Source: a virus
Strand: one strand, 5' to 3'
DNA: 50,462 bases
IMG/VR virus record: IMGVR_UViG_3300035670_000309
Coordinates: 1-50,462 of that record
This document shows positions 12,422 through 50,462 of this stretch, piece by piece. Both the position numbers and the translations under genes were made by a program. A model generated the notes under the pieces. It ran no database searches, had not been told where the DNA came from, and saw only the letters and a program-made list of their open reading frames with translations. The stretch's first letter is position 1. Every line of letters starts with the position of its first letter.

Positions 12422-13020
12422 TTTCGTTAGTGTATAACATGACGCATCAACAGGACAGACGTTTATGCGCCCGCGCTTGATGAATTAGGTTTTCTGTGCC
12501 ATAAAAGAGTTGGGGCCAGCCGCTGCAAACGGTCTGGCCCCGAGACTGCGGTTACTGGGAGAATTCCCGCAGTTGTGATGCTGAATATGTACCAGATGGT
12601 ACGGATCAAGTCAACATCATCTGATATTCCCCCCAACTGTTACCGGGTCAGCCCTCAAAACCGGATATCTCATCGGGAAGGACCCCCGCCCCTGTCTGGT
12701 TGCCCAATCGCGCCAGACGAGAATGCAGGCATATGAACGGCACGAAGTATAGTACCCACCTATCAGGGGATATTTGATAGAGCCGGGACGGCTGGCCCAC
12801 GTAACGGGTACCTGCTGGATAGGTGAGTGGAATAAGATTGGCCCTCAGCGCGTTGCAGGCCCTGTTATTGGGGATGCCGGGATACGCGGGGGTCTTCTAT
12901 TGTCTAATGGGATGTAGTGCGCCAATAGGTTGAAACAATTTGTAATTGCTCAATCAGACGATTAGCATTGATTGTATTTATCAGATTAATCAAATATGCC
13001 TCTGCGATGAATACGCAGTC
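12422..13020. other. Non-coding region with dense inverted repeats, possibly a structured RNA
   Basis: No gene is credible in these 600 bases. The part from 12512 to about 12830 is packed with pairing elements. These are an 8-bp GGGGCCAG/CTGGCCCC stem (12512-12541), a CTGCGG/CCGCAG hairpin (12545-12571), the palindrome GTACCAGATGGTAC (12589-12602), a GTCTGG/CCAGAC stem (12694-12718), and a fold closed by CACCTATC (12757-12764) and GATAGGTG (12818-12825). That fold contains CTATC/GATAG and AGCCG-GGA-CGGCT (12781-12793). A further CTATTG/CAATAG pair and an AT-rich stretch (12940-13010) with TTGATT/AATCAA follow. The pairing could serve an RNA on either strand, or DNA-level functions such as packaging or origin sites. 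Confidence 0.5.
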
Positions 13021-13030
13021 GATCCCAAGC

Positions 13031-13060
13031 AAAAAGCCCCACCTTTCGGAAGGGCTTTCT
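13031..13060 (-). terminator. Intrinsic terminator
   Basis: On the minus strand AAAGCCC-T-TCC, a GAAA loop and GG-T-GGGGCTTT form a hairpin followed by a run of five T. It lies about 40 bases downstream of the promoter at 13098-13126, so that promoter could make a short RNA of about 60 nucleotides unless the terminator is passed. The plus-strand reading ends in TTTCT and is weaker. Confidence 0.7.
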
Positions 13061-13097
13061 GATCAACACGGAGAGAAGGAAAAGAGGAGGTGAGAAC

Positions 13098-13126
13098 ACT
13101 CTATTGATTTCTGTCTGGGGAGTCAA
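13098..13126 (-). promoter_or_regulatory. Sigma70-like promoter before the late block
   Basis: The minus strand has TTGACT (13126-13121), exactly 17 bases, and TAGAGT (13103-13098). It is the best promoter in the 900-base non-coding region and points toward the terminase and late genes. Two operator-like repeats lie immediately upstream of its -35 element and a terminator lies shortly downstream, an arrangement suited to regulated or antitermination-dependent late expression. Confidence 0.55.
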
Positions 13127-13237
13127 CCTGTCTTTACCAAAAATCGCGAGTAACCGCATGTGGCGGCGTATGCAACACTACCTGTCGTTACCCTCCAAAT
13201 CGCCGGTAACCGCATGGGAACCATTGCAACCCGCTGA
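13127..13237. repeat. Two imperfect ~55-bp direct repeats with internal dyads
   Basis: Two units start at CCTGTC (13127 and 13181). Each holds TTACC, then AAATCGC, then GTAACCGCATG, then GCAAC. In the second unit GTTACC and GGTAAC form a 6-bp inverted repeat about 13 bases apart; the first unit has a weaker version. They abut the -35 element of the promoter at 13098-13126. The GTTAC half-site is shared with the early operator at 29432. Probably protein-binding sites, inferred from layout. Confidence 0.5.
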
Positions 13238-13326
13238 TTTGCTTGGGTAATTCGTCGCTTTGATCTCACAATCTCGCGACGGGCCGGACATCGGCCCAAA
13301 TCAGAGAGATTTTACTTCAGGCCCGA

Positions 13327-13542
13327 CTACTTAGCGCCGGTGATAGGATCTTTTTTCGAGGCGCTTTCAGCCCGCGCAATTTCCAACGCCAGACCGTTAG
13401 CGGCAACAACACCCAGCCCGACATAGCCCAGCTTAGAGGCATCTTCCGGCGCAATATTACCATCAACAGAGGCATTCAGAACCCGGTGCAGGGTGTTCGC
13501 AACGTCGCGGGTCTGGTCGTGCATTTCCCTGAAATCGTTCAT
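13327..13542 (-). CDS. Small protein coupled to the TnpB-like gene
   Basis: A 71-residue protein, MNDFREMHDQTRDVANTLHR followed by a small-residue helix (GYVGLGVVAANGLALEIARA). Its ATG overlaps the stop of the TnpB-like gene as ATGA, so the two are almost surely co-translated. No family was recognised. The middle hydrophobic stretch is too polar for a clear membrane helix. A GGGCCG-ATGT-CCGGCCC hairpin without a T-run lies about 40 bases past its stop. It is the last gene of the leftward early block. Confidence 0.6.
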   Translation of the reverse strand: MNDFREMHDQTRDVANTLHRVLNASVDGNIAPEDASKLGYVGLGVVAANGLALEIARAESASKKDPITGAK

Positions 13543-14819
13543 TTCGCCTTTTCCTTTCGCATCAGCTTCTTTGCCACTTTGGCTGTTTTGACAATCTCGT
13601 TGCCAAGTTCGACAACGTGAGCGGTCTTTTTCTCTGCCACGGTGCCGCCTGCCTCCGTGATTTTGTCTTTAATCAGCCCGACGAACATCGCGGGAGCCAT
13701 GCTCAAGACAAAACGGTTAAACCCTGCTTTCCACTTCACCTTTGCGCCGTGTTCTTTCCGATCACCGGCACCGGTCGCCGTCGCATCCTTGATGCTTTTC
13801 GGCTGGTAGATCGTCACTTCGCCAAACTCGCGGGCGATAGCTGCTGACAGATTATGCAGGCGGTTGGCCCGCTGGTTAGCCTGTCGCGCCTCAAGCCGCG
13901 CCTTCATGGTCCGCAGCTTTTTATAGCGGTTGCTGCCCCGCTTGCACCGCGCCATGGCCTGCTGGATTTGGCCCACGCAGTCAACTTCTTCTCTGGAATT
14001 CCGCAACTCACTGTCGTCACCCTGCGCTTCATGGGCTTCCGCAGGCATCCCGACCACAGCATAGACCACTACGTTCTTGTCGTCACCCCGCATTTCCTGG
14101 GCTTCCGTAGGAGCTTCCCCGTTAAAGCCCTGAAAGTTAAGGGTGATTCGTCCGTCAGAAGCGATAGAAACCGCAACCTCAGGACCGGCGAGACATTCGC
14201 CGTCAACGATCTTCGCAAGCTGCGTCATCAGGTCAAGCCCGATCACGCCCTTCCGAGTCCCAGCCACACGCCGGGATTCTGTTTCAACCGCGACGGAAAG
14301 AAACCACTCTCCGCCACGGTAAAGAATTTCACCGTTCTTGACCGTCCCACCATTCGGCAGGCATCCGCGCATTTTGATCCATCCCTCAATAGACTGGATC
14401 CGAACACGGCCTTTTTTCTCCCCAATTTCGCAGTCCCATCCAGCCTTTGGTTTTCCTAGCGGGAATCCTGAGTAGTACTCTGAACCTTGGTAGCGAGGAA
14501 ATCCAGACGACGCTCCATCTCCTTTTTTGGCGCGAGCAAAGAAAGCTTTATACGCTTCATCAAGGCGCTTCGCCGTCCCGTTCATCGACGCTGAACCTAG
14601 AGCTTTGTAATCATGGTCTACGGCACGAAGCTTAGTGTTGTTGGCAGTCTGATCGAAATACGTAAGGCTCTTTCCACACCGTTCGAAGGCATCAATCCGT
14701 TGCTCCAGAAGAGCATTATACAGGCGGCAATGCAGACTCCGCACCACATCAAGCCGGGCGGCTTGCGTCGCATTCGGATACAGCTTGAAGTTATAGCGAC
14801 GAATAATCATCGCGGCCAC
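13539..14819 (-). CDS. TnpB-like protein lacking RuvC-II acid, zinc ribbon and RuvC-III
   Basis: A 426-residue protein related to IS200/IS605 OrfB. The N-terminal half is well kept: RRYNFKLYPNATQAARLD, LYNALLEQRIDAFERCG, LDEAYKAFFARAKKGDGAS and WFLSVAVETESRR. RuvC-I is present as VIGLDLMTQLAKIVDGE with its Asp. An insert of about 60 residues with an internal duplication follows, then the bridge-like helices QQAMARCKRGSNRYKKLR and NRLHNLSAAIAREFGEVTIY. The expected Glu of RuvC-II is replaced (..TIYQPKSIK), and no CxxC zinc ribbon or RuvC-III Asp follows. This suggests an RNA-guided-type binder without nuclease activity. It starts with GTG 14819 or ATG 14810. No IS ends were seen, so it looks resident. 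Confidence 0.8.
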   Translation of the reverse strand: MAAMIIRRYNFKLYPNATQAARLDVVRSLHCRLYNALLEQRIDAFERCGKSLTYFDQTANNTKLRAVDHDYKALGSASMNGTAKRLDEAYKAFFARAKKGDGASSGFPRYQGSEYYSGFPLGKPKAGWDCEIGEKKGRVRIQSIEGWIKMRGCLPNGGTVKNGEILYRGGEWFLSVAVETESRRVAGTRKGVIGLDLMTQLAKIVDGECLAGPEVAVSIASDGRITLNFQGFNGEAPTEAQEMRGDDKNVVVYAVVGMPAEAHEAQGDDSELRNSREEVDCVGQIQQAMARCKRGSNRYKKLRTMKARLEARQANQRANRLHNLSAAIAREFGEVTIYQPKSIKDATATGAGDRKEHGAKVKWKAGFNRFVLSMAPAMFVGLIKDKITEAGGTVAEKKTAHVVELGNEIVKTAKVAKKLMRKEKAK

Positions 14820-14822
14820 CGA

Positions 14823-15131
14823 TCACAGAGAAACAGAGAAGGAAGCAAAGCCTTCATCAGCAAACTTATTGCGACGAGCGGCAATCGCTGCATCAGACGC
14901 AACCGGCAGGTATCCGGTTCCATTCAGCGTGAAGAACCGGCCACCAGAGCAGAACTCATCAGCGCGAACGCAGATCATGCCGTCTTGAAACTCGTTAAAG
15001 TCGGAAGCCTTAGCAGACCCGGCAATCTCTTTCATCGCGACAACCTTACGACCACGACCCGGCTTTACCAGAAGAAACAGGTTATCGCAAACGATGTTGG
15101 AGATTTCGAAATCGTAGCTGATCTTTTCCAT
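14823..15131 (-). CDS. Hypothetical early protein with duplicated leader
   Basis: A 102-residue protein starting MEKISYDFEISNIVCDNLFL. The start at 15131 is chosen because it follows a ribosome site in a leader that also precedes the gene at 16414-16596. The sequence is a mixed alpha/beta fold with a basic segment (KPGRGRKVVAMKE) and the segment FCSGGRFFTLNGTGYLP. No family was recognised. It lies immediately upstream of the TnpB-like gene (4-base gap), probably on the same transcript. Confidence 0.65.
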   Translation of the reverse strand: MEKISYDFEISNIVCDNLFLLVKPGRGRKVVAMKEIAGSAKASDFNEFQDGMICVRADEFCSGGRFFTLNGTGYLPVASDAAIAARRNKFADEGFASFSVSL

Positions 15132-15178
15132 GATGCGGCCCCTTGCCGTTTCTGCTGCGGCCCCTGCCGCTGCTGATG
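15132..15178 (-). promoter_or_regulatory. Conserved mRNA leader, copy A
   Basis: The 47 bases before the gene at 14823-15131 match, with few changes, those at 16597-16643. On the minus strand the leader has GCGGC..GGCCGC, able to form a short hairpin, then AGAAACGG and an A/G-rich ribosome site ending CCGCATC before ATG. TATAAC about 55 bases upstream of the ATG may be a -10 element. Shared leaders before unrelated proteins suggest common post-transcriptional control. Confidence 0.45.
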
Positions 15179-15222
15179 AAACTGTTATATCGGCTTTTGA
15201 TCGTCTCGTCACACGAAAAAAT

Positions 15223-16413: not shown

Positions 16414-16596
16414 TCACGCCTCCGCAAAGGTTTTTTGCGCAAGGCGGATCAGATCTTCAAACTGAGAGCAGATCTTTTCATTTTTCTCGGCAATCGCAAC
16501 CATGATCTCATGAAACGAAACTTCATGCTTTTCAGCCAGAAACTTCATGGTTTCGACGGCGACGGTTGCGGTGAAGTGAGCGATTTCTTTGTTCAT
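16414..16596 (-). CDS. Small helical early protein with duplicated leader
   Basis: A 60-residue, almost wholly helical protein: MNKEIAHFTATVAVETMKFL, then EKHEVSFHEIMVAIAEKNEK and EDLIRLAQKTFAEA. It follows the copy-B leader and a strong terminator, so it starts a new transcript segment or is controlled after transcription. No family recognised. The 72 bases to the next gene contain nothing obvious. Confidence 0.6.
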   Translation of the reverse strand: MNKEIAHFTATVAVETMKFLAEKHEVSFHEIMVAIAEKNEKICSQFEDLIRLAQKTFAEA

Positions 16597-16643
16597 GATG
16601 CGGTCCTTTACCGTTTCTGCTGCGGCCCTTGCCGCTGCTGTAA
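16597..16643 (-). promoter_or_regulatory. Conserved mRNA leader, copy B
   Basis: Matches the leader at 15132-15178 with few changes. On the minus strand it runs CAGCAGCGGCAAGGGCCGC, then AGCAGAAACGG, then AAAGGACCGCATC and ATG. GCGGC and GCCGC can pair as a small hairpin close to the ribosome site. The upstream part lies only 13 bases from a terminator. Confidence 0.45.
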
Positions 16644-16655
16644 GACTGTTTTACC

Positions 16656-20526: not shown

Positions 20527-20891
20527 TTGTCACCCCTCGCTTCCGTCTTGGCTGGGGCGGCTGCGATAACAGCGGCGGCATACTGCCGCGCCAGCTGCAT
20601 GTCTTCCGCCGTGGGTTCCTGATCTGACAGCAGCCAAAGGCGCGTCAAGGGGCGGGCCATTTCATCGGTGGGGATTACCGGAACGGCCTTCCATGTTCCA
20701 GCCTTTAACGCGGATAGCGTTGCAGTGTGCAGCCCAAGAAAAGAAAGAGCCATAAAGTGCTGTTTCGTGAGATCTACCCAATACTCCCGTTCAGCTGGGC
20801 TAAGACGCATCCACAAACTACAAGCTGCGTCTCCCTCGATAACGGCTCGTAACTGTTGCGCAACGCGCATGATAAAGTCATCAACGGTCAT
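20523..20891 (-). CDS. Paralog of the gene at 28100-28471
   Basis: A 122-residue protein from ATG 20891, after GAGGAGAGC. Its C-terminal half (LSALKAGTWKAVPVIPTDEM, TRLWLLSDQEPTAEDMQLAR, AAAVIAAAPAK) is nearly the same as that of the protein at 28100-28471, while the N-terminal halves differ (this one MTVDDFIMRVAQQLRAVIEG). The shared half is a widespread phage domain of unknown role. The pair points to duplication or domain exchange within the genome. Confidence 0.65.
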   Translation of the reverse strand: MTVDDFIMRVAQQLRAVIEGDAACSLWMRLSPAEREYWVDLTKQHFMALSFLGLHTATLSALKAGTWKAVPVIPTDEMARPLTRLWLLSDQEPTAEDMQLARQYAAAVIAAAPAKTEARGDK

Positions 20892-28103: not shown

Positions 28104-28471
28104 TCCTCCCCTGGCTTGGCAGGAGCGGCTGCGATAACGGCTGCAGCAAAATGCCCGGCGTGCTGCATATCTTCCGCTGTGGGGTCCTGCTCTGGAAGCA
28201 GCCAATAAAGGCGCGTCAAAGGAAGGGCCATTTCATCGGTGGGGGCCACCGGCACGGCCTTCCACGTTCCAGCCTTCAGCGCGGCCAGCGTCTCAAGCGG
28301 GATGTCAAGGCTTTCCAGAACATCACGCGCAATTGTGCGCCACTTATATTGTGCGTCTTCATTCAATTGAGACCACTTAACGTAATCTTCTCCAGAAACC
28401 CACATCCTCCGATTTACTTTTTCGGAGAACGCTTCCTTAGCCGCTTCATCAATCATCTCTTCAACGGTCAT
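28100..28471 (-). CDS. Paralog of the gene at 20523-20891
   Basis: A 123-residue protein with a distinct N-terminal half (MTVEEMIDEAAKEAFSEKVN) and the shared C-terminal domain LAALKAGTWKAVPVAPTDEM, then LPEQDPTAEDMQHAGHFAAA. The two paralogs differ mainly at their N-termini, which suggests domain swapping on a common C-terminal module. Function unknown. It overlaps the GapR-like gene by 4 bases. Confidence 0.65.
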   Translation of the reverse strand: MTVEEMIDEAAKEAFSEKVNRRMWVSGEDYVKWSQLNEDAQYKWRTIARDVLESLDIPLETLAALKAGTWKAVPVAPTDEMALPLTRLYWLLPEQDPTAEDMQHAGHFAAAVIAAAPAKPGEE

Positions 28472-28728: not shown

Positions 28729-29361
28729 TTATCGGTAAATTTTGCCGCCGATCTTGGCGGATGCTGGAATGTTCGTCACACTGGTGCCCCGGAGGTAGAG
28801 GGAGCCTCCGACGGTCAGACCGTCAGGCAGGGCGGTGACACCGGTGACCTCAAGGTCGAGGTAGCCTCCGACGGTCAGACCGTCAGGCAGGGCGGTGACA
28901 CCGGCGCCACGGAGGTCAAGGTAGCCGCCGACAGTCAGGCCATCGGGCAGGGCGGTGACACCGGTGCCCTCAAGGTCGAGGGAGCCTCCGACGGTCAGAC
29001 CGTCAGGCAGGGCGGTGACACCGGTGCCCCGGAGGTAGAGGGAGCCTCCGACAGTCAGGCCATCGGGCAGGGACGTGACACCGGTGCCCCGGAGGTCGAG
29101 GGAGCCTCCGACGGTCAGACCGTCAGGCAGGGCGGTGACACCGGCGCCACGGAGGTCAAGGTAGCCGCCGACAGTCAGACCGTCAGGCAGGGCGGTGACA
29201 CCGGTGCCCTCAAGGTCGAGGTCGCCGCCGACGGTCAGACCGTCAGGCAGGGCGGTGACACCGGTGCCCTCAAGGTCGAGGTCGCCGCCGACAACATAAC
29301 CAGCCGGGAGCGCCTCAAATTCGGAGGCAGTCATTCGGATTGTGATTTTAACGTTTTCCAC
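28729..29361 (-). CDS. LRR-like protein with nine 20-residue repeats
   Basis: A 210-residue protein with a GTG start (29361). After a short head (KITIRMTASEFEALPAGY) it has eight near-identical 20-residue units of the form G-x-L-D-L-x-G-T-G-V-T-A-L-P-D-G-L-T-V-G and a ninth, degenerate one (TSVTNIPASAKIGGKIYR). L-D-L and L-P-D-G-L spacing fits a leucine-rich or beta-solenoid repeat. The units differ mainly at two positions (D/Y/S before L; E/R after L). It is the first gene after the leftward early promoter, so it is probably expressed early and strongly. Function unknown. Confidence 0.75.
   Translation of the reverse strand: MENVKITIRMTASEFEALPAGYVVGGDLDLEGTGVTALPDGLTVGGDLDLEGTGVTALPDGLTVGGYLDLRGAGVTALPDGLTVGGSLDLRGTGVTSLPDGLTVGGSLYLRGTGVTALPDGLTVGGSLDLEGTGVTALPDGLTVGGYLDLRGAGVTALPDGLTVGGYLDLEVTGVTALPDGLTVGGSLYLRGTSVTNIPASAKIGGKIYR
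28781..29300. repeat. 60-bp tandem repeat array, 8-9 units
   Basis: The coding DNA of the LRR-like protein repeats every 60 bases (core ACGGTCAGACCGTCAGGCAG on the plus strand). Most units differ at a few bases, mainly near the ends. Such close units can expand or shrink by slippage or recombination, so unit number may vary between isolates and assemblies may miscount it. Confidence 0.9.
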
Positions 29362-35889: not shown

Positions 35890-35966
35890 GCTCCCTTAGC
35901 TCAATTGGATAGAGCATCGGGATTCTACCCCGACGGTTTGCGGTTCGAGTCCGTGAGGGAGCGCCA
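35890..35966 (+). tRNA. tRNA-Arg (anticodon TCT)
   Basis: The 77 bases fold as a complete cloverleaf: acceptor GCTCCCT/AGGGAGC, D arm GCTC..GAGC, anticodon stem TCGGG/CCCGA with loop ATTCTAC (anticodon TCT), T arm with TTCGAGT, and an encoded GCCA end. It reads AGA codons, which are rare in high-GC hosts, so it may aid translation of the phage's AT-richer genes. A terminator follows 17 bases later. Confidence 0.95.
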
Positions 35967-50071: not shown

Positions 50072-50462
50072 TTACAGATTGATTTGCGTCCCGGTCTGGC
50101 CGACCGAGAAGGAGAACTGAAGAGAATAGTTGATGGTGCGAAGCTGCGTCACGATGTACAGCGGCCCGCTGATGGTGGCGGTGCCGGTGGAAAGGTTAAC
50201 GGTGACGGTGGTGTTGTCGCTGAACGCGGCTTCAGCAGCCTGCCCTGCCTGCACCAGACCAGCATTGGCGAGAGTGCGGTAAATGTCGGCGCACACCGAC
50301 TTGATGGTTCCAGCGTTAGCCATGTTGAGGCCCGGAATCACGTCCCCAGAAGTCAAACGGGACTGGCTGAAGGCCGCCCGTAGCACCCGGAAGAACACTT
50401 CACGGCAGACAGAGCCGGTATCTACATAGTTGAGATATTTGAAGGAAACGTTCTCATTCCCC
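50072..50462 (-). CDS. Tail sheath protein (C-terminal part)
   Basis: The last 87 codons of the sheath gene are 50335-50072; bases 50336-50462 repeat positions 1-127 in the same frame. The segment reads FFRVLRAAFSQSRLTSGDVI, then ADIYRTLANAGLVQAGQAAE and ends SFSVGQTGTQINL. The C-terminal domain of sheaths is the inner core that contacts the tube. The frame is intact across the window ends. Confidence 0.85.
   Translation of the reverse strand, partial: GNENVSFKYLNYVDTGSVCREVFFRVLRAAFSQSRLTSGDVIPGLNMANAGTIKSVCADIYRTLANAGLVQAGQAAEAAFSDNTTVTVNLSTGTATISGPLYIVTQLRTINYSLQFSFSVGQTGTQINL
50336..50462. repeat. Terminal overlap, right copy
   Basis: Identical to positions 1-127; see the left copy. It shows that the assembly closes on itself. 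Confidence 0.95.

Follow-up and report, generated by a model that had tools for sequence, protein, structure and literature searches.

The most surprising feature of the gene described here is an in-frame array resembling clustered regularly interspaced short palindromic repeats (CRISPR), rather than a dead TnpB alone. The gene lies at 13539-14819 on the minus strand of the window, by which we mean the whole IMG/VR phage record IMGVR_UViG_3300035670_000309 (50,462 nucleotides, nt), and its 426-residue product is a TnpB-like protein that appears to have lost its nuclease site. A second phage contig, IMGVR_UViG_3300031576_000141 (G001), carries a related gene with a clearer array at the same place. 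We see about an even chance that the product is a non-cutting RNA-guided DNA binder which evolved from TnpB and would take its guides from the CRISPR-like array nested in its own gene.

A TnpB homolog without an intact nuclease site

The gene and its catalytic positions are as follows.

13539-14819, minus strand: TnpB-like, apparently nuclease-dead protein of 426 residues with a GTG start (profile, sequence, fold and alignment)
14232-14234, minus strand: codon of the RuvC-I Asp (D196, GAC), which is kept (invariant column in a 46-sequence alignment)
13803-13805, minus strand: RuvC-II position, where Gln339 replaces the catalytic Glu (near-invariant Glu column; IYQPKS versus xxEDLx)
13584-13586, minus strand: RuvC-III position, where Thr412 replaces the catalytic Asp, the zinc ribbon being gone between RuvC-II and Thr412 (alignment locally weak)

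The product matches phrog_506 (E 1.6e-36), the NCBIfam model guided_TnpB (111 bits, cut-off 100), the PADLOC Cas12u4/Cas12f models (E about 1e-20), solved TnpB chains (E about 1e-19) and solved Cas12n (E 3.7e-8). Its predicted structure has a mean predicted local distance difference test score of 79.8 with a confidently modelled core, and the best PDB match found by Foldseek was ISDra2 TnpB (8exa, E 3.5e-17), followed by Cas12f, dCas12f, Cas12m and TranC. Profile, sequence and modelled fold all identify the protein as a TnpB homolog, and in fold it stands nearer to TnpB than to the Cas12 effectors. Among ordinary relatives, the IS605-type TnpBs of Pseudomonadota come closest (about 30-36% identity).

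RuvC residues were scored in alignments with 10 to 54 relatives (up to 55 sequences). Besides the replacements listed above, no remnant resembling the R-D-x-N-A motif was found near residue 412, where the alignment is weak, and the four-Cys zinc ribbon is deleted in the alignment, with no match to the Cas12f1-like_TNB family (PF07282) in the window genome. Active TnpBs combine a RuvC D-E-D triad with a C-terminal zinc ribbon; here the triad is broken and the ribbon missing, and loss of nuclease activity is well supported by the aligned sequences. Outside the part that carries the array, identity to the G001 gene by codon position (.565/.631/.376, N- and C-terminal regions) reveals purifying selection.

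An earlier note on this DNA, made from the sequence alone, had described a phage-resident, TnpB-derived, nuclease-dead protein at this location, and the present results support that description and add the purifying selection to it. Its IS605-type TnpB homology with retention of RuvC-I is confirmed by the profile matches, the fold and D196; the Glu replacement that it had placed near VTIYQPKSI corresponds to Gln339 in the Glu column; and the reported loss of the zinc ribbon and the RuvC-III Asp agrees with the deleted ribbon and with Thr412 in the Asp column, albeit in a weak stretch of the alignment. In the alignments, a check that it had proposed, two of the three RuvC acids are lost. It was also right that the gene lacks insertion sequence (IS) ends and is coupled to a 71-residue protein: neither IS ends nor a tnpA or transposase open reading frame (ORF) was seen beside the window gene, and tnpA is annotated adjoining most plasmid relatives.

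An in-frame CRISPR-like array after RuvC-I

Compared with other TnpBs, the window protein has an extra segment of ~60 residues after RuvC-I (residues about 209-281), which the earlier note did not mention and which is absent in 139 of the 139 other TnpB relatives examined. Its parts are listed below.

14127-14195, minus strand: pre-array segment CLAGPEVAVSIASDGRITLNFQG, common to the G001 relative and absent in other TnpBs
14076-14111, minus strand: repeat 1 (CCTACGGAAGCCCAGGAAATGCGGGGTGACGACAAG), from repeat comparison
14046-14075, minus strand: 30-nt spacer-like stretch between the repeats (AACGTAGTGGTCTATGCTGTGGTCGGGATG), unrelated to the next unit
14010-14045, minus strand: repeat 2 (CCTGCGGAAGCCCATGAAGCGCAGGGTGACGACAGT), a predicted hairpin, from repeat comparison and folding
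13980-14009, minus strand: 30 nt after repeat 2 (GAGTTGCGGAATTCCAGAGAAGAAGTTGAC), a possible second guide position by its location only

The window repeats are 34-36 nt long with a period of 66 nt and are identical at 29 of 34 positions (200 codon-shuffled versions of the gene reached no more than 24), and the 30 nt between them have chance-level identity to the next unit. Repeat 2 resembles the G001 repeat in its hairpin shape, and 3.9% of synonymous recodings are as stable. The array-coded residues 232-272 form a disordered loop in the structure model, suggesting that the protein fold tolerates the array.

G001, found by a profile scan of viral contigs, is the sole relative in which the insert was detected. 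Its protein (481 residues, 42% identity to the window protein) keeps the RuvC-I Asp, carries Lys and Ala at the remaining catalytic positions (E339->K, D412->A) and is without the zinc ribbon. The two phages are otherwise unrelated: among the complete ORFs of the linear G001 record, a list that does not include the split TnpB-like gene, nothing matches another gene of the window significantly, and G001 has a GC content of 64% and its own portal and methyltransferase genes.

At the same place and in frame, G001 carries the 36-nt repeat GGTGTCGATACCCCGGAAACGGGGGGCGACAACAGG; three copies at the contig end are identical, and a last copy is degenerate. The spacers are 30 nt long and mutually unrelated (chance similarity, 6-12 of 30), giving again a 66-nt unit, and the coding frame stays open through all of them, whereas the other two forward frames contain 4 and 3 stops. 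The overlapping ends of the contig differ by one whole repeat-spacer unit, as one end has an extra spacer between two spacers that both ends share; the reads therefore hold at least two versions of the array. CRISPR arrays are characterized by identical repeats that degenerate towards the 3' end and by variation in whole units, and by its sequence the G001 insert is a clear CRISPR-like repeat-spacer array. Type V arrays are recognized by identical repeats and diverse spacers, both of which are seen in G001, while the window has two diverged repeats only.

When the G001 repeat was compared with every position of the window genome in both orientations, no pair of sites with a 66-nt spacing scored higher than the window's own two repeats (45 of 72 positions identical, at most 39 elsewhere). 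In ungapped comparison, the window and G001 repeats share 22-23 of 36 nt yet only 3 of 12 amino acids, and the matches per codon position (7, 7, 9 and 7, 8, 7 of 12) are not fewer at third positions, in contrast to the remainder of the gene. By this comparison the two sets of repeats are homologous, and they have a common 66-nt period. Because their nucleotides are better kept than their amino acids and third positions are no more diverged, the constraint seems to act at the nucleic acid level within the repeats and at the protein level outside them. The repeat of G001 is predicted to form a nested hairpin whose stability is above that of 98.6% of its synonymous recodings.

The 3' end of the gene and the possible source of guides

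The earlier note had proposed an RNA-guided regulator with its guide RNA near the 3' end of the gene or in a non-coding region of 900 bases. The two features concerned are the following.

13327-13542, minus strand: ORF of 71 residues that overlaps the stop of the TnpB-like gene by 4 nt (ATGA); no match to a known family
12422-13326, no strand assigned: about 900 nt in which no ORF is convincing as a gene, upstream of the gene for the small terminase; nothing here matched an omega-RNA

The right ends of the closest IS605 relatives were located by comparison of element copies, and 12 of them were aligned to build a covariance model. These ends have in common GAAAC, a hairpin and AGTTCAT, followed by the guide. 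The model recovered 8 of 8 held-out active relatives at the 3' ends of their tnpB genes (E 9e-15 to 7.5e-4) and found nothing in the window, although a strongly diverged RNA could escape it; its best match in G001 (E 0.11, on the opposite strand) was not significant. An Rfam scan of the window returned only a tRNA, with nothing at the 3' end of the gene or in the 900-nt stretch. Both searches, and the coding ORF that directly follows the gene, speak against a guide RNA in either of the proposed places. A dead, regulator-like TnpB remains plausible; the layout of TldR, with its guide at the 3' end or in the 900-base region, is the part of the proposal that found no support. The 3' guide of the relatives appears to have been lost or altered past recognition, making the array within the gene the better candidate source of guides. 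In its layout of a hairpin, a short tail and then variable sequence, the array resembles the omega-RNA end ahead of its guide.

Proposed mechanism and alternative explanations

If the array does supply guides, it would do so from a loop between RuvC-I and the next long helix, and the transcript of the gene would double as mRNA and guide precursor. We infer that binding or processing would take place at each of the hairpin repeats, that the sequence 3' of the repeat would act as guide, and that the dead protein would block and repress a DNA target without cutting it, by analogy with Cas12m and TldR. The sharing of a dead protein with an insert at the same site by two otherwise unrelated phages speaks for this reading. 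A more specific version, to which we give somewhat less than an even chance, is that of a 'self-guided' effector gene, in which an in-frame array makes one transcript both mRNA and pre-guide RNA and the whole moves horizontally as a repression cassette among unrelated phages; under the same version, and equally short of an even chance, the 30-nt stop-free spacers would be constrained to keep the reading frame.

Several points weigh against guide use of the array. Only two members, in the window phage and G001, are known. The G001 gene spans the join of a circular contig, and its 481 residues are obtained by reading across that join. Repeat 1 of the window folds weakly, 13% of recodings being as stable, and the window array is minimal (two diverged repeats and one true spacer), which may mean one or two guides, or else decay or a relic. 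No match to Cas1 (PF01867) was obtained in either phage, whereas the control genomes matched; small type V systems and those of phages often lack Cas1. Finally, no protospacer was found in either phage itself, in phage records, in plasmids or in 398 Pseudomonadota genomes, a search of low power; since the hosts were not identified, this negative is weak evidence. Apparent spacer targets were at chance level only, and several of them crossed the artificial joints of concatenated spacers.

The main rival explanation is that the repeats are a protein feature, namely a disordered and hypervariable linker, built of tandem repeats, in a dead TnpB, with no RNA role. The array is indeed in frame, with a 66-nt unit and spacers that are stop-free in the coding frame only, and it codes for a disordered loop; such 'false CRISPRs' are known inside coding genes (PMC5294841), and the failure to find spacer targets would fit as well. 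However, it is the absence of diverse spacers that defines a false CRISPR (PMC5294841), whereas those of G001 are unrelated to one another, the repeats are identical even at synonymous positions, and between the phages it is the nucleotides rather than the amino acids that are conserved, so that we consider a linker unlikely. It is also conceivable that the hairpin repeats serve as RNA elements to which a protein binds but which supply no guides: the dead TnpB might autoregulate its mRNA through them, or they might, like RNA anti-CRISPRs, be decoys for a host CRISPR effector. Stable hairpins are predicted in the mRNA, TnpB proteins bind RNA hairpins in their own transcripts, and phage repeats are able to act as decoys. 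Such elements would leave the unrelated spacers of equal length and the whole-unit variation in G001 unexplained, and no host CRISPR with the repeat (up to 2 mismatches) was found in the 398 Pseudomonadota genomes; we regard this explanation as improbable.

An ordinary TldR, that is, a dead TnpB with its guide RNA at or after the 3' end and an irrelevant insert, would account for the dead RuvC site, the phage setting and the absence of a transposon, as in TldR (PMC13418256). It sits poorly with the lack of an omega-RNA-like 3' end in the window, as opposed to all eight held-out relatives, with the ORF that starts directly after the gene, and with the conservation of the array-bearing insert in the sole close relative, and we think it quite improbable. 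A functionless, decaying domesticated TnpB might be suspected from the loss of two catalytic residues and the zinc ribbon and from the divergence of the window repeats; considering the open frames of 426 and 481 residues in two unrelated phages, the purifying selection and the confident core model, decay seems very improbable. Guides drawn from the nested array thus remain the reading that we favour.

Searches for further relatives

No close relatives were detected by peptide-pattern scans of viral and genome contigs or through the 71-residue neighbour, and none of the 80 loci of syntenic phages reached through the terminase has a TnpB-like gene. Genomes of two classes, 385 of one and 369 of the other, yielded no family members. 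Searches of all viral contigs for the exact G001 repeat, for the window repeat and for a relaxed pattern of two copies with a 66-nt period led only to G001; a match to the repeat pattern in another phage contig (L274) lies within a different phage protein and was discarded as chance.

Other phage TnpB-like genes were also noted. Two of them (L001:2254-3513 and L002:2254-3498) belong to large phages of Klebsiella (Stephanstirmvirinae) and Salmonella (Seunavirus); they are labelled hypothetical protein or transposase, have no transposon annotated alongside, and their RuvC acids look intact. In IMGVR_UViG_3300035130_000021 (L268:4784-5000), a TnpB gene is directly followed by short repeats with translations (VFPARAGMN, VPRPRGDEP) that look CRISPR-repeat-like.

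Genomic context

Positions 1-127 of the window are repeated exactly at 50336-50462. The size of this repeat, 127 bp, is a common assembly k-mer, which suggests an assembly overlap of a circular, complete genome of ~50.3 kb. The terminase has relatives in phages of Paracoccus and Aeromonas (~55% identity), and a tape-measure protein, RecT, a dCTP deaminase and a Bro-N anti-repressor are also encoded. The TnpB-like gene sits within a run of minus-strand genes, immediately upstream of the packaging genes. G001 has a 77-residue ORF at the position equivalent to the 71-residue ORF, but a relationship between the two was rejected as not significant (score 24, shuffle mean 24).

Within the 900-nt stretch, two imperfect palindrome-bearing copies (AAATCGC..GTAACCGCATG) lie 56 nt apart at 13130-13216 and could be packaging or operator sites. 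Elsewhere in the window, a tRNA-Arg (TCT) gene is found at 35890-35966 on the plus strand, and the minus-strand ORF at 28729-29361 contains 60-bp tandem units, about 84-91% alike, coding for 20-residue repeats of the DLEGTGVTALPDGLTVGG type. A duplicate of ~68 bp (15122-15189 and 16586-16653, 85% identity) surrounds the starts of two different small genes and is possibly a common leader or expression signal; another, of ~177 bp, is located far apart at 20547-20720 and 28115-28291 (82% identity).

Comparison with known systems and significance

TldRs are similarly TnpB-derived, phage-borne and located outside transposons, with an inactivated RuvC (PMC13418256), but their guide RNA lies downstream of the gene, whereas no such RNA was found for the window gene, which has an array inside its ORF; nor is it associated with fliC, csrA or another known target gene. 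IS605-family TnpBs (Acidiphilium, Azospirillum, Methylorubrum and Marinospirillum) resemble it in sequence and fold along the full protein (30-36% identity) and differ in keeping the RuvC acids, mostly the zinc ribbon and a 3' omega-RNA, and in having no insert. Type V effectors that do not cleave DNA (Cas12m, V-C) and the miniature V-U/Cas12n/Cas12f also combine a RuvC-fold effector with CRISPR-like repeats, and silencing through binding is documented for V-M and V-C (PMC12669027, PMC11013384); the arrays of known effectors lie outside the effector gene, while those of the window and G001 are nested in the coding sequence. TIGR-Tas systems likewise pair a single effector, in some cases with an inactive RuvC, with tandem guide arrays carried by phages (PMC12045711). 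However, Tas proteins have Nop domains, and in TIGR arrays, which lie outside the gene, two repeats of 8-12 nt alternate and the spacers are 9 nt long, in contrast to the TnpB-type domains only and the single 36-nt repeat with 30-nt spacers found here.

Type V CRISPR systems have been inferred to have arisen about 50 times, by TnpB becoming associated with adaptation modules or with arrays of repeats (PMC12669027). The literature covered, which largely excludes subscription journals and bioRxiv, showed no case of an array lying within the ORF of an effector, and the arrangement may provisionally be considered new. Arrays that are translated as part of an ORF are commonly dismissed as artefacts (PMC7673337), a practice in which annotators may need caution. 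If guide use is true, guide and effector would be locked in one transcript, an unknown arrangement that is mobile between phages, and one DNA would have to satisfy a protein code, an RNA hairpin and a guide together. The evolution of a guide array within coding sequence, and the use of programmable non-cutting repression by phages, would thereby become testable.
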